Of a stretch of DNA of 64,000 nt, positions 52,895 through 63,058 are shown in pieces; the first letter of the stretch is position 1, and each line of letters begins with the position of its first letter. Below the pieces are notes generated by a model. That model was not told where the DNA came from. It made no database searches and was given only the letters and a program-made list of their open reading frames with translations. Origin of the DNA: an uncultured Spartobacteria bacterium (lineage in GTDB: Bacteria; Verrucomicrobiota; Verrucomicrobiia; Chthoniobacterales; Chthoniobacteraceae); the NCBI GenBank assembly GCA_903919125.1, contig CAIXGS010000076.1, positions 1-64,000 on the forward strand. Direction: 5' to 3'. Made by a program: the position numbers and the translations under genes.

Positions 52895-53260
52895 TCAGAC
52901 CTTTCTCGCAGCGCGCCCCTCGTCAATCAGTTCCCAAAACTTACGTTGCTGGGCGAGTTCGACGTCCTCTGTGGGCATCGGTAAAGAAGCACGGAACAAA
53001 AAGTCTCGGAACGTATTGCGATGTAAAACCCTATGCACGGTGATGCCTTCAGGCGCGCGCTCAAAGTAAATCCGATAATCTTTGACCCGGTAACGAAACA
53101 GCTTTTTACCTTCGCGCTCAATTAGTCCAAATCGCTCTGGATCCGCCTTATCCACCTCCTCGGGAAGCACTTCAAAATCCGAAAGCAAATCTAACTGCAG
53201 TTCAGTCGGGAGCGCCGACATTTCTGCCGCGCTGGTTGCATTAAAAACGACCTGAAACAT
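52895..53260 (-). CDS. RelE-fold protein (toxin-like), no adjacent antitoxin
   Basis: 121 residues. The end KLFRYRVKDYRIYFERAPEG and ITVHRVLHRNTFRDFLFRA is the RelE/ParE-superfamily pattern. The N-terminal FQVVFNATSAAEMSALPTELQ matches as well. A typical RelE toxin has about 85-100 residues; here a ~15-residue tail (EGRAARKV) follows. No antitoxin-like gene is adjacent. The downstream partner is an aminotransferase, 4 bp away. It could be a toxin with a distant antitoxin or a domesticated RNA-binding protein. Confidence 0.75.
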   Translation of the reverse strand: MFQVVFNATSAAEMSALPTELQLDLLSDFEVLPEEVDKADPERFGLIEREGKKLFRYRVKDYRIYFERAPEGITVHRVLHRNTFRDFLFRASLPMPTEDVELAQQRKFWELIDEGRAARKV

Positions 53261-54426: not shown

Positions 54427-54852
54427 CTATTGAGACTTAGGATGCGGGAGGCCAAGGGGTTTTGCGGGCGCAGTACCCAAGGGGAGCGGGGCAATCGGTG
54501 CAATCGGTGCGTCCAAAGAAGGCTGGGAAGACTGGATCTTCCATTTGAGCGTGAGCGCTCTCGCATCGGGGTCCACTTTGGAAAGCTCTAGTAATTCGGT
54601 AAGCATGGCAGCGTATTTGGCCTCCAGTTCCTGGCCGCGCTTGATTTGAGACTCCCGTTTCTCGATCGCCTCGTCGGTTTGTTTGTTAGTGGTTTTTAAG
54701 GCGCTTAGTCGTTGAACGAGGAACGTTTTCTGCGCCTCGAGCATCGGTTTTTCCAAAAAGACCGTGCGTGTTTGAGCCGCTAAATAAACCAAGGCAGCCA
54801 ACGCCAAACCGCCCTGTGCCAACACCATGCCCCGATGATCGGATTCCGTCAT
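54427..54852 (-). CDS. Module gene A, copy 2: single-pass coiled-coil protein
   Basis: 141 residues from ATG 54852. One membrane segment (GGLALAALVYLAAQ), then a coiled coil (KTFLVQRLSALKTTNKQTDE and EKRESQIKRG), then the conserved box EAKYAAMLTELLELSKVDPD and ARALTLKWKIQ, ending in a Pro/Ala-rich tail. The same box occurs in the gene at 55548-56051, so the two are paralogs. No known domain. It lies 22 bp after gene B copy 2. Confidence 0.8.
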   Translation of the reverse strand: MTESDHRGMVLAQGGLALAALVYLAAQTRTVFLEKPMLEAQKTFLVQRLSALKTTNKQTDEAIEKRESQIKRGQELEAKYAAMLTELLELSKVDPDARALTLKWKIQSSQPSLDAPIAPIAPLPLGTAPAKPLGLPHPKSQ

Positions 54853-54874
54853 AATATAAAAATGTAGGGTCGCC

Positions 54875-55249
54875 TTAATTCTTGTTCGGGCTGCTCGGGG
54901 TGAACACGCCATGAGACGCGCTGGAATCGCGCAAGTCATAGCGCAAAAGCAAATCCTTCAACTTTTGATTGCTCATTTTATCAGCAAGCTTGGCGATGTC
55001 CGCCACTACTGCGGGCCCAATAGTTGTCGATATGGCAGAACCTTTGTTGAGTTGCTCCTGCTGAAGCGCCAACTGCTTCCGTTTAGCCTCCAACTTCGGT
55101 TGAAATTCCTCAATTTGCCGCTGCAACTCAAAACCGCTCACCCGTAACTGCACGCTCTCCGAGGAGGCCGTATAGTACCGCACACTGAGGGTGACTACCG
55201 CCCCCGCCAAAAGCGCAACGGCGTAGCTAAGATTAAATCTAAAACTCAT
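54875..55249 (-). CDS. Module gene B, copy 2: single-pass coiled-coil protein
   Basis: 124 residues from ATG 55249. One N-terminal membrane helix (RFNLSYAVALLAGAVVTLSV), a coiled-coil region (QIEEFQPKLEAKRKQLALQQ), and the conserved box SAISTTIGPAVVADIAKLAD with LKDLLLRYDLR. The box is shared with the 56053-56451 gene (SAIADTVGPAVVSDIMTLTE ... LRDLLAKYGVR). Followed after 22 bp by gene A copy 2. Function unknown. Confidence 0.8.
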   Translation of the reverse strand: MSFRFNLSYAVALLAGAVVTLSVRYYTASSESVQLRVSGFELQRQIEEFQPKLEAKRKQLALQQEQLNKGSAISTTIGPAVVADIAKLADKMSNQKLKDLLLRYDLRDSSASHGVFTPSSPNKN

Positions 55250-55547
55250 AACAAGAAAACCAAGTGAGAGGCAAAACAGACAAAAGCAAATAAAACTCTG
55301 AAGGATACTCCGCCAAAACAAAACTTTTGCCGAAAGAGTACCCCAGAAAAAATTGTCAGTTTAACGTTACCTCAAAAAGCTTCCCGTTGCAGCAAACACT
55401 CTTTCTTTGCGATTAATCCTCAAAACAGAAGTTCACGCGGACGCACGGAGAAATACAAATTCCTGTAAAAAAAGATGTTTCATTCCCAACCTCCGCGCCT
55501 GAGTGAATCCCGTCAAACTCCTCGGCACACTCGACGGCCCGTGCCAA
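55250..55547. other. Intergenic region between the two B-A copies
   Basis: About 300 bp between module copy 1 and copy 2, the longest gap in this cluster. It is AT-rich around 55310-55460 and probably holds a promoter for copy 2. No RNA or repeat recognised. Confidence 0.4.
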
Positions 55548-56051
55548 TTAGGGCGCCTTCGCTTTCGCAGGCATCTCACTCGATGTGGCTTTCGGCGCCT
55601 TTGCATCTTTGGGAGCCTCTTTCACCGGCTCGCGGGATTCCCCTGTGGCGGCCGCTGATGTCTTGACCGTCGACGCATTGGCCGGTGTTGCCTCAGCTCC
55701 AGCAGCTTGTATTTTCCACTTTTGAGTCACGGTCCGAGCATCAACGTCCGTCTTGGAAAGCTCTAATAATTCGCTCAAGAGCGAGGCGTATCTTGCTTCG
55801 GTGGCGGTGGCCTTCTTTATCTGCTCCTCCCGAGTAACAACGTCCGTTTCAATCTGCGAAAGGCTCCCTTTTAACTCCGAAACACGCTTGGCGATTACAC
55901 TGCGCTGCGCATCCAAAAGAGACCGCTCCAGTAAACTCACACGCACTTGGGTGAACACAAAAACCAGTGCGGCCGCGGCCAAAGCAACCACTGCAAAATA
56001 AATCCCAAAATTCGTCCGCTGAGATACCCGCTCTACTCCAATCTCTTCCAT
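55548..56051 (-). CDS. Module gene A, copy 1: single-pass coiled-coil protein
   Basis: 167 residues from ATG 56051. A membrane helix (GIYFAVVALAAAALVFVF), a coiled coil from RSLLDAQRSVIAKRVSEL to TDVVTREEQIKKA, and the family box EARYASLLSELLELSKTDVD with ARTVTQKWKIQ. The Ala/Lys/Pro-rich tail is longer than in copy 2. It starts one base after gene B copy 1 stops, so both are co-translated. Function unknown. Topology with a short cytoplasmic end and a long periplasmic coiled coil resembles FtsL/FtsB-like scaffolds, but no sequence match is claimed. Confidence 0.8.
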   Translation of the reverse strand: MEEIGVERVSQRTNFGIYFAVVALAAAALVFVFTQVRVSLLERSLLDAQRSVIAKRVSELKGSLSQIETDVVTREEQIKKATATEARYASLLSELLELSKTDVDARTVTQKWKIQAAGAEATPANASTVKTSAAATGESREPVKEAPKDAKAPKATSSEMPAKAKAP

Positions 56052-56052
56052 A

Positions 56053-56451
56053 CTAATTCGCCCCTTTCTTGAGGACCGCTGGAGCCTGTGTCCCAGAGAC
56101 AGCCGTGCCAGCCGATGTCGCCCCGGCGGCGGCCACACGGACTCCGTACTTTGCAAGCAAATCGCGTAAACGCGGATTACCGGTTTTTTCAGTCAAAGTC
56201 ATAATGTCGGAAACCACAGCCGGCCCTACCGTGTCAGCAATCGCAGACTTTTTGTTCAGCGCCTCTAGCTGGGCTTGGATCTGCGGCCTACGCGCGTTGA
56301 TCTGGCTTTGAAACATCTCGGCCAACTGTTGGAACTCGAAAGTTTCGGTACGAATCTCGACATTACCCACTGCCGCAAAATACAAGCGACCGCTCAACGC
56401 AAGCACGCCGCCGGCTAGCACCGCTGTGAAATAATTTAACTTCGTAAACAT
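56053..56451 (-). CDS. Module gene B, copy 1: single-pass coiled-coil protein
   Basis: 132 residues. N-terminal anchor (FTAVLAGGVLALSGRLYFAA), coiled coil (EFQQLAEMFQSQINARRPQI) and the B box SAIADTVGPAVVSDIMTLTE. Ala/Gly-rich tail. It begins 17 bp past a terminator-like hairpin after the autotransporter gene. Followed by gene A copy 1 with no gap. Confidence 0.8.
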   Translation of the reverse strand: MFTKLNYFTAVLAGGVLALSGRLYFAAVGNVEIRTETFEFQQLAEMFQSQINARRPQIQAQLEALNKKSAIADTVGPAVVSDIMTLTEKTGNPRLRDLLAKYGVRVAAAGATSAGTAVSGTQAPAVLKKGAN

Positions 56452-56467
56452 TGGGTTTAATTAGCAC

Positions 56468-56496
56468 AAAAGCGGCGACCAGGCTATGGCCGCCGC
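56468..56496 (-). terminator. Intrinsic terminator after the autotransporter gene
   Basis: On the minus strand, GCGGCGGCCA pairs with TGGTCGCCGC (9 pairs plus one G-T wobble, 5-nt loop), followed by TTTT. It lies 40 bp after the autotransporter stop and only 17 bp before the ATG of module gene B copy 1, so it may serve as an attenuator rather than a full stop. Confidence 0.65.
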
Positions 56497-56535
56497 CCTT
56501 GTAATCCATTGGGCTAAGATGAACCTACGATCAAC

Positions 56536-59500
56536 TTAGAAGTTTACAGCAATCGAGAACATCCCGGTGCTCTGGGTCCGGTTGACACCCATCTCCTGCT
56601 CGCCGCTGAGGCGGAGAGTCCAGCGGTCGTTAAACACAGCCTGCACACCCAAGTTGAACTGGGCGGCATCGGAATCGCTTCCCCGTCCAGTGGATGTATA
56701 ACTCCCGTTGTAACCCACGAGTTGGAGGTTGAGTTCCTTGCCCTTAGCGTCGAAGTCGTGGACCCAGAACGCAGAAGCGTCCATTCCTAGCGAGACATCT
56801 CGGCCCAAATCCACAGAACGCGACAAACGCGCCCCGAGCTTGGTGATGGTCGAATTGCTAGTCAACTTACCGGCTTTCACCAAGGTACCCGTGCCAGTTT
56901 CCTGAAACCCGTCTTGAGTGTACTCCGTGAACTTCACCCGAGCCACAGGCGTGAGCTGCCAGCCGCTGCCCTTGGGCAACAAATTCACCGAAACGCCCAA
57001 CCCCAACTGGGTGTCACTCGTGTTAAAGGCTGCTCGTGCCGTATCGATTCCAACGGTGCGGGTGACCTTGTCCTCCGCAGTTCCAAACAAGGCGGAGACG
57101 TCAAGCGTCACCGGTCCGATAGCCACACTTCCGAAACCGCCAAACGCACGATGATCCGATTCCAAATGCGCGTTGGGGTCGCTGAAGTTTGCAGTGGCCT
57201 GTCCAATGGCACCCACCAACCCATAGCGCAGACCGCCCGAAGTGCGCTCTACTCCCAGCATCGAACCGTTGTCGTTTGAATCGCTAGCTCCGAAGCTGCC
57301 ATCGAGATCCGCATCTCGGCTCCCGCGCGAGGTGTAACCCGAGATCCAAGCCTTCCACGTCTTCTCATCCTGACCAACAGGCACGGTTCCCACACCTGCC
57401 CCACCGGAAGCTGGCATCACACCCATACTAAAGACTGAGTCGGCCGAACCTTCTCCTGCCATCCCGTCAATCTGAGCGTCGAGCGCATTCCCCACGGTGA
57501 TCGCCTGCTGGAGACCCACTGAAGCCATGCTGCCATAGGACGCTCCTGGATTAACCGCACGCAACCGTGCCGACACATCCGCTGAGCTGGTGTAACTGTC
57601 CAACTGACGCAGCAGCGTCCCGATGGTACCGGTATCGACGTAATTTGACGAGGTCAGCTGGCCAGTGAGGAAGTTTGCAAATGCAGCACTGTTCGCACCC
57701 TTCGCGAAACTCGCATAACTGGAGCGATCCACGACCAAGTTGATGGAACCGCTTTGCGTCAGCAGTTGTATGTTGATGACCGCGGTGTTTGTTCCATCGA
57801 ACTTAGGTGTACCTGTGAAGGATCCACCACTGAGAGTTGTGATAATCCCCGCATACTTGTTGGGATTCCCGACCGTCAAAGAGGCCAAGGAAGTGCCCGT
57901 AGTCAGGCTCGTGACGGGAATAATCGAACCATTACCATCCCTCGGTGAAACGGTTATGTTAGACAACGAACTACTAGTCGACGACAGCGCAATGGTGTCA
58001 TAAGTGACGCCTGGTGTTACTGCCACTGTGCCAGTGTTGACTTCCCAAATATACGTGCCAGTTCCAGTGAGGGCTCCGACCGTTAGTCTGCCCGGTGAGT
58101 TACCGGGAGAGATATAACCACCACTCAGATTGACTGTGCCATTCACGCGGCCTGAACCTTTCAGGGTTTGAGTCGATTCGAGCACGATCGCGGCTGCTGC
58201 GTTAATTGAACCATTCGCGACGATAGTCGTGGCCGTTTGACGATACGTACTAAAGTCGGCGGTGGCACCACTCGCGACGGTCAACGTCCCAACTCCCAAC
58301 GCGCTTGAACCTCCCGCGGTGACAGTGCCCGCACTGACGGTCAACCCGTTCAAGCCAGTGTTGGAGCCCGAAAGAGTGAGGTTGCCTCCGTTGGTTTTTT
58401 CCAACCCATTCGCGCTCGTGATAGCCGCACTTACAGTGCTGGCGCCTGTGCCGTTGGCCACGATTTTAGACGCGGAAGTCACAGTGCCACCCGTCACCGT
58501 CGCTCCCCCGAGAGTTACTGTGCCTGACGCCGCGATGGCACCATCCGTCACAGATCCGCCGTTCAGGTTCACTGTTACCGCGCTAATCGTACCACCAGTG
58601 ACAGTCGTCGTTCCGCTCACCGTGGTCGTCGTCGCCGTCACGTTGCTCGTGGTCACCGCACCTCCGCTCAGATCAACTGTCGCACCCCGGATTGTCCCGT
58701 TTACCACCGCGCCACTGCTCACTTTGACCGCCGTAGTTCCCGTGATCGTTCCACCCGACACCGTCGCCCCTCCGACAGTTACGGTGCCTGACGCTGCGAT
58801 GGCACCATCCGTCACAGATCCGCCGTTCAGGTTCACTGTTACCGCGCCAATCGTCCCACTAGTAACAGTCGTCGTTCCGCTCACTGTGGCAGTCGTCGCC
58901 GTCACATTACTGTTGGTGACCGTTCCTCCGCTCAGGGAAACCGTCGCCGCCTGAACTGCTCCGCTCGAAATCGAGCCCGCGGTTACGTTGACCGCGCCAG
59001 TGGTAGTTGATGACAACAGCGAACCACCGCTCACCAAGCCGCCCGCCATCGTCACGGAAGTCGTGCCAGAAAGCGTACCACCGCTCAGCAAAGAGCCACC
59101 AGCCACTGTGACCGTCGTGGCCGTTGTGTTACCACCGCCTGTCACCTGACCACTGTTTAACGTGATCGAGGAAACGCTCTGTGTGGTTGAACCAAGCGCA
59201 AGCGAACCACCTCCAACGGTAATTCCAGTGCTCGAATTCCCCAAAGCACCGTTTGCTGATACCGTCACCGTGCCTGCATTCACCGACAGACTACCAAAGG
59301 TGTTGGCCGCGTTGCTCAACGTGACCGACGAATTCGCTTGATCCACAATGATGCCGCCGATGCCGGTGACGCTGCCGCTCAATGTGATTTGACCGCCCAC
59401 GCGCGAAGTCGAACCGGACACTGTGATGTTGTTGCTCAACGTCACAAGGGTGCTATCAAAGCTCGTGAGACTTCCTCCAGAAAGCTCCACGGCACCAAAG

Positions 59501-62500
59501 CCCAATGAACCGCCGGAAGCTAAACTGAGTTCACCTAGAGTAATCGAGGTGTCTCCGTAGTAAGTGTTGGCACCTGCAATGACCACCTTGCCCAAACGTG
59601 TCTTCTCAAATCCTGCAGATCCGGCGAGGATCGCGCTAATGGTGGCAGTCTTTCCAGAATCCACAGCAGCGGAGAAATTACCATCACTCTTGCTGATTGT
59701 ACCGCCAGCGCTGCTACTCGTTAAACTGCCAGAAGAAATACTGACATTCTGCAAGCCTGCATCCACTGAGTAACCAGCCAGATCCAATACACCACCACTC
59801 ACGGAAACCGCGCCATTAGCCGTCAACGCATTGCTTATTCCCAGCTGAAGCGTGCCTGCACTTACCGTCGTGCCACCAGTGTAAGTATTGGCATGACTCA
59901 GAATCACAGTGCCAGCTCCGCTCTTTTCGAAACGGGCCGTGCCCGTCAAGAGAGCGTCCACGGTAGTGGTGCCCGTGGTCACATTCGCGTCAAATTTGGT
60001 TGATGCGCTGATGGTACCGCCAGTGACGGTGCCAGTGGAGCCAGAACTACTCGTGGAGATGGAGAAGGAGCCGGTGGAGAACGTATTGCCGTTCATGTCC
60101 AGCGATCCACCGTTGATGATGAGCGTCCCGGTTCCTAATGCTGTGCTTTTGTTCAAACCCATGCGAACCGTCCCAGCGTTGATTTCAGTGCCGCCGCTGT
60201 ACGTGTTATTTTCCGCAAGAATCAGTAGTCCGTCTCCCGTCTTCACCAACCTCGCTGCCCCACCACCGGAGGATTGCGAGAGTACGCCTGAGATTGTCAA
60301 CGACCCGATCGAAGCAGTGGTGCTGACCACATTAAATGTGTTGTTAACAACTCCAGAGGTGCCGCTATACAAAGTACCTTGAGTGAAGGAGGACGATGTC
60401 GTTCCCGCGTTGAAGGTCAACGTCTGGCTTCCTCCCGAGAAGGTCAGCGTTCCTAGGCTCAATCCAGTGCCGCCATTCACAATTATGGACGAATTGGCTG
60501 AGACGGTAAAATTGGTTTTGGCATCAACATACCCAAGACTTCCCGAATCCACCTGCAACGTTCCTCCTGCGAGCGTCACGCCCACGTCGTTAGTTCCGTC
60601 CGAAGTGCCTAGAGCGCCTGCGGATCCGACGATCACGCTTCCAGCCGAAATCTTAAAATCACTCAAAACTAGCGAAGACGTAGTTGCTGAGGCCGAGCCT
60701 AGGGAAAGCGTGCCGTTCCCCTTTTTCACAAAGCCGATCGTGCCCGCAGAAGCTGAGGAGGTTCCAAGTGCCACGCTCAATTGCACCGTCGTTCCGGCAG
60801 CGACATCCCACGTATGCGCTGTCACGGCAGCGCCGTTATCATCCAATGCCACCGCGCCTGTGAACTGAAGCGTGCCCGTATTGGACGTCGTCCCGAAACC
60901 CACGGTTCCTTGTGAAAGGAGTGCATTGGAAATGGAGAATGTGGAGGTCGCCGATGTCCCCCCGTTCGCAGCGAGAGTCGGAGTGGTTGAAGAAGTTCCC
61001 ACCAGGACTAATACGCCTGTGGCATCATTACCAAATGCGCCGGAAACGCCAGTCGCACTGCTGGTCCCCACAACTACGGTTCCGGCGCTCAATGTCGAAC
61101 TCCCTGAGAACGTGTTGGCTGCATTTAAGTACACCGTGCCAGTGCCCGATTTTATCAATTGACCGACCCCTGCCAAAACCGCGTTGACCGTTCCAGCTTG
61201 AACATCAAAAACACCACTCGTCGTCACGCTTCCTGTACCAGCCGAGTCCGCAACGGTTCCATCCGATTTCACACTGAGCCCAGCAACCGATGCCGTTGAG
61301 CCGTTAATATCGACTTTTGAGGTTGTGCCATCCACGGTCAGGGAACCGAGCCCTATTGCGGCGCCCGTACCCAGCGCGAGCGTCCCGCCCGTGACATTCG
61401 TGTCGCCGGAATACGTGTTTGTTCCATTGATCGTGACAGTGTCAGAGGTCGTCTTGTTGAGCGTGCCAGCACCTGCCAAAACAGCGTTGACCGTCCCCTT
61501 CTGCAAATCATAGGTGCCCGCGGTGACCTGTCCCGCCCCGGTAACGGTCGCACCGTTCTGGACTTGTAGCACGGAATCCGCAGCCAGAGTCTGCGTAGTA
61601 CTGCCGACGTCGAGCGTCGTGCTGCTCCCGCTCACGGTGACATTTCCAGCAGTTGCGCTGGTGTTGTCGGCGGAAAGAACCAACGACCCTCCCGTCACAC
61701 TGGTGACGCCCGTGTAGGTGTTGACACCGCTCAGAGTTACCGTCCCGGAAGTCGTCTTGCTCAGAGAACCGGTTCCCGCCAAGACAGCGGAAATGCTGCC
61801 TGACTCCGTGTAGAAGGACGAGGCTGTGATAGATCCATTACCCACAGAATCCGTTACCGTCGAGGTACCCGTCACCGATAAGCTACCCGAGGTTGAAAGC
61901 GCGATGCCCGCCAAATCCAGTGTCGAGTTCACTCCTATAACCGACACGCTTCCAGTCCCCAAAGCGCTCGAACCCCCAACAATGAGCGAACCCGATGCGA
62001 CTGTAGTGCCACCCGTGTAAGTATTTGTCCCGCTCAAAACGAGAGTGCCAGCGTTTAGAGTAATGCTTTTGCTGCTCCCCGAAACTGTTCCACTCAGCGT
62101 GACACTGCCCGTACTCGTAGCCGTTGAACTGTTCACTGAGAGACTTTGCGAAAGGGCGAGATCTTGGGTGAGAGTTAGGGTTGTCCCGGCCCCCGCGTCG
62201 AGTTTCACGTTCGTGGTGCTCGTACCAGAATCAAGACCCAACGAACCTGAAAAGGTCACGTCGCTCAGGGTGAGGTCTGCAGGAGCGGTCACGGAAATCG
62301 AACCCACTTTGTAGGCGCTATTGACAGTAAACGACAGAGCGGAACCGGTAACGATTCCCATCGTGCCAATGATGATTGCGTCACCGGCAGCAGACGGAAC
62401 CGGGAAAGTCCCGCTGGTACTCCAATTTGTTATGTCACCGTATGTTGCAGACGTTGATCCCGTAAACGTATAGGTCGCCGCAGAGGCAGTCACGCCGTGG

Positions 62501-62652
62501 GCCAAAATTACGACGCCCGTCAAGATACGTAACGCAAACCGTTTCCACACAGGCTGAGTGCCAACATCCAGCACGCCGTGAGAGAGCACTTCGCCATATT
62601 TTTTGTGAATGGCGTTCTTAGTGGCTGGTCGGGCTTTACGTGACATTGTCAT
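56536..62652 (-). CDS. Autotransporter with PATR-type beta-strand repeats
   Basis: Type V secreted surface protein, about 2,038 residues. The N-terminus has a basic stretch and a hydrophobic signal segment (FALRILTGVVILAHGVTASA) after ATG 62652 (a GTG upstream at 62727 would add 25 residues). The passenger contains at least seven copies of the autotransporter-associated repeat, visible as NTYTGGTTV, NTYSGDTNV, NTFSGSSTL, NTYYGDTSI and similar, alternating with Gly/Ser/Thr-rich beta strands typical of a beta-helix. The last ~280 residues form the outer-membrane barrel, starting near KTWKAWISGYTSRGSRD and ending in FSIAVNF with terminal Phe. The passenger contains only a 264-bp internal duplication. 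Function (adhesion, surface layer) is not readable. The module genes B-A follow it. Confidence 0.9.
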   Translation of the reverse strand: MTMSRKARPATKNAIHKKYGEVLSHGVLDVGTQPVWKRFALRILTGVVILAHGVTASAATYTFTGSTSATYGDITNWSTSGTFPVPSAAGDAIIIGTMGIVTGSALSFTVNSAYKVGSISVTAPADLTLSDVTFSGSLGLDSGTSTTNVKLDAGAGTTLTLTQDLALSQSLSVNSSTATSTGSVTLSGTVSGSSKSITLNAGTLVLSGTNTYTGGTTVASGSLIVGGSSALGTGSVSVIGVNSTLDLAGIALSTSGSLSVTGTSTVTDSVGNGSITASSFYTESGSISAVLAGTGSLSKTTSGTVTLSGVNTYTGVTSVTGGSLVLSADNTSATAGNVTVSGSSTTLDVGSTTQTLAADSVLQVQNGATVTGAGQVTAGTYDLQKGTVNAVLAGAGTLNKTTSDTVTINGTNTYSGDTNVTGGTLALGTGAAIGLGSLTVDGTTSKVDINGSTASVAGLSVKSDGTVADSAGTGSVTTSGVFDVQAGTVNAVLAGVGQLIKSGTGTVYLNAANTFSGSSTLSAGTVVVGTSSATGVSGAFGNDATGVLVLVGTSSTTPTLAANGGTSATSTFSISNALLSQGTVGFGTTSNTGTLQFTGAVALDDNGAAVTAHTWDVAAGTTVQLSVALGTSSASAGTIGFVKKGNGTLSLGSASATTSSLVLSDFKISAGSVIVGSAGALGTSDGTNDVGVTLAGGTLQVDSGSLGYVDAKTNFTVSANSSIIVNGGTGLSLGTLTFSGGSQTLTFNAGTTSSSFTQGTLYSGTSGVVNNTFNVVSTTASIGSLTISGVLSQSSGGGAARLVKTGDGLLILAENNTYSGGTEINAGTVRMGLNKSTALGTGTLIINGGSLDMNGNTFSTGSFSISTSSSGSTGTVTGGTISASTKFDANVTTGTTTVDALLTGTARFEKSGAGTVILSHANTYTGGTTVSAGTLQLGISNALTANGAVSVSGGVLDLAGYSVDAGLQNVSISSGSLTSSSAGGTISKSDGNFSAAVDSGKTATISAILAGSAGFEKTRLGKVVIAGANTYYGDTSITLGELSLASGGSLGFGAVELSGGSLTSFDSTLVTLSNNITVSGSTSRVGGQITLSGSVTGIGGIIVDQANSSVTLSNAANTFGSLSVNAGTVTVSANGALGNSSTGITVGGGSLALGSTTQSVSSITLNSGQVTGGGNTTATTVTVAGGSLLSGGTLSGTTSVTMAGGLVSGGSLLSSTTTGAVNVTAGSISSGAVQAATVSLSGGTVTNSNVTATTATVSGTTTVTSGTIGAVTVNLNGGSVTDGAIAASGTVTVGGATVSGGTITGTTAVKVSSGAVVNGTIRGATVDLSGGAVTTSNVTATTTTVSGTTTVTGGTISAVTVNLNGGSVTDGAIAASGTVTLGGATVTGGTVTSASKIVANGTGASTVSAAITSANGLEKTNGGNLTLSGSNTGLNGLTVSAGTVTAGGSSALGVGTLTVASGATADFSTYRQTATTIVANGSINAAAAIVLESTQTLKGSGRVNGTVNLSGGYISPGNSPGRLTVGALTGTGTYIWEVNTGTVAVTPGVTYDTIALSSTSSSLSNITVSPRDGNGSIIPVTSLTTGTSLASLTVGNPNKYAGIITTLSGGSFTGTPKFDGTNTAVINIQLLTQSGSINLVVDRSSYASFAKGANSAAFANFLTGQLTSSNYVDTGTIGTLLRQLDSYTSSADVSARLRAVNPGASYGSMASVGLQQAITVGNALDAQIDGMAGEGSADSVFSMGVMPASGGAGVGTVPVGQDEKTWKAWISGYTSRGSRDADLDGSFGASDSNDNGSMLGVERTSGGLRYGLVGAIGQATANFSDPNAHLESDHRAFGGFGSVAIGPVTLDVSALFGTAEDKVTRTVGIDTARAAFNTSDTQLGLGVSVNLLPKGSGWQLTPVARVKFTEYTQDGFQETGTGTLVKAGKLTSNSTITKLGARLSRSVDLGRDVSLGMDASAFWVHDFDAKGKELNLQLVGYNGSYTSTGRGSDSDAAQFNLGVQAVFNDRWTLRLSGEQEMGVNRTQSTGMFSIAVNF
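58496..58960 (-). repeat. 264-bp internal duplication in autotransporter passenger
   Basis: Two adjacent near-identical stretches offset by exactly 264 bp (88 codons), one starting at 58496 and the next at 58760. Both encode NLNGGSVTDGAIAASGTVT and a TATT-V-SGTTTV segment. Similarity at the DNA level is high, with scattered third-position changes, indicating a recent or gene-converted duplication. Confidence 0.85.
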
Positions 62653-63058
62653 AAGAGGAAATTTTGTATTCTGAAAAACCTCTGGATCAATCTTTTTTAG
62701 CGGAATTAACGAACTTTCAAACTGCACGCGTGTTTACTGGAAACCTACCTGTAACCCGTCTGTCGTCAGACCGACGCCAATTTGAGACCCGCCCTGCTTG
62801 CCAGCCAACTTGCAATGCAATTTTTCATACATTTTCATGCTTCCGCATTTCTCAAGTCACAAAGTCCAGTCCCTGCCCGCCTGAAACGTACGGTGCTAAA
62901 ATTCGTCGGCAATCATATTGACAACGAGGCGTAGCCACAAGAAAGTTGCTCGTTGGCAGATATTTCAGAATGCACTAGCGGTGCAGCTTGAAACATCATT
63001 TCCGTCCACCCCGACGACCACTAACCCTCCAAGTCAGTTGATTATCCCCTCATCACTC
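62653..63058. other. Divergent intergenic region, autotransporter / unknown gene
   Basis: About 400 bp with no coding frame I trust. It should hold the promoter of the autotransporter gene. A TTGTCA at about 62920 on the minus strand is a candidate -35 but no good -10 follows at normal spacing. Confidence 0.4.

Follow-up and report, generated by a model that had tools for sequence, protein, structure and literature searches.

The locus studied here raises the question of what two small adjacent genes, B and A, encode together, and why they occur twice in the same order in one genome. We have examined them in a 64,000-nucleotide stretch of DNA (hereafter the window) from an uncultured Spartobacteria bacterium. 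The four genes lie on the minus strand, B1-A1 at 56451-55548 and B2-A2 at 55249-54427, with intergenic gaps of 1 nt (B1/A1), 22 nt (B2/A2) and 298 nt (pair to pair). The features of the locus are the following, in the direction of transcription:

56536..62727, minus strand: autotransporter with PATR repeats and a PF03797 beta-domain, immediately upstream of B1 and on the same strand
56462..56498, minus strand: terminator-like element separating the stop codon of the autotransporter from B1, a strong GC-rich hairpin with a short T run after it
56053..56451, minus strand: B1, with a minimal N-tail, membrane helix, heptad coiled coil, C-terminal cap (SAIADTVGPAVVSDIMTLTEKTGNPRLRDLLAKYGV) and Ala/Pro-rich tail
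56056..56070, minus strand: Shine-Dalgarno-like sequence AAGAAAGGGGCGAAT, within the final B1 codons (..KKGAN) and just 5' of the A1 start
55548..56051, minus strand: A1, with a short N-tail, membrane helix, heptad coiled coil, C-terminal cap (LLSELLELSKTDVDARTVTQKWKIQ) and Ala/Pro/Lys-rich tail
54875..55249, minus strand: B2, the second copy of B
54427..54852, minus strand: A2, the second copy of A

The start of B2 was set at the ATG at 55249; a longer ORF could begin at 55321, its extension having no counterpart in B1. The hairpin at 56462..56498 is absent from the output of a simple consensus scan, and comparable hairpins are found in loci L034, L041 and L044. Comparison of the B/A junctions revealed that most B proteins of the genus end in ..KKGGN, similar to the B1 ending, and these codons seem to have a dual role, as protein end and as ribosome-binding site of A. 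When the sequence was read again, the coordinates, the repeated B-A order and the shared boxes given in a preliminary description of this DNA proved exact, and the single membrane helix that it assigned to each protein corresponded to the only hydrophobic N-terminal stretch present.

Pairwise alignment showed that B1-A1 and B2-A2 are two copies of one gene pair. The gap-free alignment of B1 with B2 covers 105 aa at 47% identity (E 6e-31); its score is 233, against a mean of 29 and a maximum of 51 for shuffled sequences. A1 and A2 are 46% identical over 102 aa, again gap-free (E 4e-29; score 226, shuffled mean 34 and maximum 59). The likeness spans the proteins from the membrane helix to the C-terminal box. 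Hence, the earlier view that everything outside the boxes had diverged holds for the tails, but not for the membrane helix and coiled coil, which are alike throughout. The tandem duplication that had been proposed is sound as far as the two copies are concerned, and its origin within this lineage is possible: grouping the window pairs as sisters was neither supported nor rejected (AU p 0.43), and their divergence from each other is about that from other members of the genus. Several related genomes also carry the pair in duplicate; in the other genomes examined no back-to-back double pair was seen, and where two pairs occur they lie apart.

We have then searched for known relatives. Pfam, NCBIfam and PHROG contained no family matching the window proteins, and profile searches of the PDB returned chance-level matches only, bearing out the initial impression that no known family is recognised. 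Scans with 29-37 family members gave only scattered weak coiled-coil matches, a Foldseek comparison of the A model with the PDB gave no match, and literature searches found nothing on the A/B family. AlphaFold2 predicted the same fold for A2 and B2, namely a long helix (residues ~3-93) separated by a break from a short one (95-103), with a disordered tail behind.

The pairing of the two genes is conserved well beyond this genome. We have recovered 76 B-then-A pairs (45 first collected and 31 from 34 later-fetched loci), with constant order and strand; they come from 17 or more families (group codes) of Verrucomicrobiota. The gap between B and A was 35 nt or less in 39 of the 45 first pairs, several of which had overlapping stop and start codons. 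Of 97 related genomes, 30 gave a B match in a single-protein search; among the lowest-scoring of these matches, a few are spurious. With a profile, A was found in 33 of the 40 genomes from the same family, in four genomes that belong to one genus of a second family, and in one from a third; a contig scan with A2 retrieved two near relatives only. Profile searches placed the pair in many further families of the class and phylum. The distribution is patchy, the pair being missing in many genomes of the phylum at the search sensitivity used; thus, it is not essential to all of them.

Comparison of the A and B profiles indicated that the two proteins are themselves related (P 8.5e-8). Because coiled coils mislead profile tests, the comparison was repeated with the caps alone (~30 residues), yielding P 2.9e-6, whereas 20 column shuffles reached 0.0086 at best. 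No signal came from the coil segments by themselves, and the AtpF and MreC controls gave little or none. In locus L222, A and B could be aligned directly with a score of 111, the shuffled maximum being 51. On these comparisons A and B are homologous, i.e., the module is a duplicated gene that was later duplicated again as a pair. L222 and L236 (family f88), where the direct A-B alignment is possible, are perhaps near the state following the founding duplication.

The strongest indication on how A and B relate to each other came from the length of their stalks. Stalk length was taken as the number of residues from a fixed membrane-helix column to a fixed cap column, with A and B aligned separately; these anchors replaced an earlier, noisy measure that relied on the most hydrophobic segment. 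With the window pair as reference, the A/B length changes were 0/0 (25 pairs), +14/+14 (2) and +28/+28 (1), with further changes of -7/-7, -14/-14, -14/-15, -10/-11 and about -21/-19 or -22 (12). The lengths of A and B were correlated with r = 0.997. With an anchor inside the cap and phylogenetic contrasts, r was 0.994 (sign-flip p 0.0005), and 0.96 after removal of the three largest contrasts; the cruder measure based on hydrophobicity only gave 0.95, or 0.87 with contrasts. Among the 31 later-fetched pairs, 27 matched within one residue (r = 0.98), and the four discordant ones include rows with visibly misaligned anchors. The steps in stalk length are mostly multiples of seven, and the hydrophobic periodicity of the stalk (3.48 in A and 3.52 in B) is the heptad value. 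Because the two lengths move in lockstep, it is almost certain that A and B act together, in line with the complex that the preliminary description had inferred.

Taken with the heptad period, the lockstep lengths are most simply read as a coiled coil of A with B, parallel, in register and fixed at its two ends. Our main reading, to which we assign a probability of roughly 0.6 from the sequence comparisons, is that A and B would form such a stalk with paired caps and serve as an FtsL/FtsB-like docking scaffold. A and B would have been born from one gene through an old tandem duplication, would insert adjacently in the inner membrane, and would wind over their full length into a parallel heteromeric coiled coil (A:B or 2:2). 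Each helix would break at the top into a short conserved cap, with the observed pattern of roughly hydrophobic-x-x-D-L-x-x-L/A, four to six residues and I/L-x-x-K-Y/W-x-I, and continue into a flexible Ala/Pro-rich tail. The stalk would keep both caps at a fixed distance from the membrane, as FtsLB does with its post-hinge helices, and a partner would most likely bind the caps there. We infer the physical pairing and its stoichiometry, as well as the scaffold role, a periplasmic location of the stalk and a service to the cell envelope. The loci read contained no conserved neighbour gene pointing to a docking partner.

A role of coiled coils as fixed-length molecular spacers is established (PMC5082667). 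Along these lines, the A/B proteins could be an undescribed duplicated-protein complex of Verrucomicrobiota acting as an adjustable ruler, whose length tracks the distance from the inner membrane to the target; we hold this tentatively, at a little short of even odds. Evolution would then set the height by inserting or deleting heptads, mostly entire ones, in the two proteins at once; compared with the window pair, the stalks range from -21 to +28 residues.

The resemblance to FtsL/FtsB, also raised in the preliminary description, concerns architecture. FtsLB combines short or minimal N-tails, a membrane helix, a coiled coil, a hinge and then a short FtsQ-binding helix (PMC8749076). Like A/B, FtsL and FtsB are two single-pass proteins whose coiled coil adjoins the membrane and is separated by a break from a short C-terminal helix; the N-tail is short in A and minimal in B. 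Unlike FtsL/FtsB, A and B were not seen beside division genes, are demonstrable sisters and vary in length mostly by heptads. Membership of that family was ruled out: comparison with DivIC/FtsB gave no Pfam match and profile P values of 0.09-0.31, and all seven of the genomes tested have a separate DivIC/FtsB gene (e.g., G000:C76:105811-106038).

A periplasmic placement of the stalk has a competitor, which we consider unlikely. The b and b' subunits of the ATP synthase peripheral stalk are two sister proteins, and A and B could be arranged likewise, with their N-termini outward and the coil in the cytoplasm near the membrane, holding a cytoplasmic partner. Such an orientation would be compatible with the acidic N-tail of A and with its flanking K/R residues (0.78 before versus 2.16 after the helix, with more after it in 35 of 45 proteins). 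AtpF of the same genomes is similar (0.68 versus 3.59) and MreC is opposite (2.24 versus 1.45), these control ORFs having been chosen by their position and length, with one or more of the MreC rows visibly a different protein. However, most DivIC/FtsB proteins of these genomes, whose C-termini are periplasmic, share the charge bias of A, so that the charge test does not discriminate topology. We have therefore dropped flanking charges as a topology criterion: the AtpF and MreC controls separate, yet most FtsB proteins behave as AtpF. In addition, the charges of B are ambiguous, and there is little or no profile similarity to AtpF: the ATP synthase b profile (PF00430) gave P 0.004 with A and 0.26 with B, and no atp neighbours were recognised in the loci read. 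The A/B model shares with b/b' the two sister proteins, the one membrane helix and the long paired helix, but A and B differ in their heptad periodicity, shorter length, conserved cap and in not being seen beside atp genes.

PilN/PilO and GspM-type proteins are adjacent bitopic inner-membrane proteins with a coiled coil, as are A and B in this respect. Unlike them, A and B have no globular domain after the coil, and no pilus or secretion genes were recognised nearby. The T2SSM/GspM matches obtained in B members were only weak and scattered.

As opposed to a heteromeric stalk, A and B might form separate homomers, their lengths matching because both reach the same third component. Matched lengths are indeed no proof of direct contact, and sister proteins such as these could each self-associate. 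Nevertheless, the strict adjacency of the genes, their frequent translational coupling and the near-exact residue match are more simply explained by direct pairing, and we regard separate homomers as improbable.

A somewhat less probable explanation still is that the pair is an accessory of the upstream autotransporter, aiding its secretion, folding or anchoring. An autotransporter lies beside 6 of 18 pairs in ten genomes holding 52 beta-domain matches; this is far above chance, although it falls short of a consistent linkage. The linkage arose at least twice, in the genus and in family f6, with well-supported branches between them. Against an accessory role, in most of the loci whose surroundings were read, other genes flank the pair, among them a LacI-type regulator, a tRNA CCA enzyme, an S4-domain protein, a xylulokinase and an epimerase (some of these names were read from the sequence), and most autotransporters checked in the same genomes have no adjoining pair. 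Strong hairpins separate the autotransporter from B in four of five upstream-linked loci, three of them with T runs, which opposes a simple operon. The linked autotransporters of the genus belong to one subfamily, in a tree where one linked locus is unplaced and the G093 row is probably in the wrong reading frame; this subfamily also contains unlinked ones, and a single dedicated clade was ruled out. Thus, the proposal that the module serves the adjacent autotransporter gains a little from the non-random adjacency and its two or more origins, and loses more broadly through the many pairs without one and the intervening hairpins. The link looks like a lineage habit rather than a core function.

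Other arrangements were noted in these loci. At G093:C132:67262-69050 (L059, L089) the beta-domain lies downstream, not upstream, of the pair and appears to be truncated; at the equivalent pair of G044 (L054), no autotransporter was seen adjoining. A LacI-type regulator precedes the pair by ~60-170 nt in L046, L050, L056, L057, L061, L063 and L064, which represent several genera of the family, and some of these loci have a tRNA CCA nucleotidyltransferase downstream of the pair.

Finally, a phage-type spanin or other lysis or mobile module can practically be dismissed: A and B resemble Rz/Rz1 as small adjoining genes for proteins with a membrane helix and coiled coil, and one B (L046) has weak Rz-like matches (E 5e-4), but a spanin pair requires an outer-membrane lipoprotein, and neither the B nor the A alignment has a consistent lipobox, PHROG offers no match to the window proteins and, in place of a phage context, the neighbours are ordinary chromosomal genes. 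The Cys common in the B membrane helix was rejected as a lipoprotein sign, as the window B proteins lack this residue and the helix runs past it in other clades.

These data delimit a gene-pair family across a poorly studied phylum, missing from Pfam and NCBIfam, and propose a structure for it that can be tested. The coupled changes in length amount to a natural experiment in coiled-coil co-evolution, from which partner choice and register could be predicted without a structure, and the stalk lengths could be set against envelope dimensions. In the window genome, the B1-A1 and B2-A2 stalks are of equal length; therefore, length alone would be no bar to cross-pairing. Two complexes may coexist in one cell, as the preliminary description had suggested, and the two pairs offer a test of how sister coiled-coil pairs stay separate.

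Elsewhere in the window, the minus-strand ORF at 52895-53260 has a ParE-like toxin match just under the Pfam cut-off (22.8 bits versus 23), and positions 20-817, on the same strand, encode SecG (PF03840), whose long C-terminal tail contains many nearly identical PKADA repeats.
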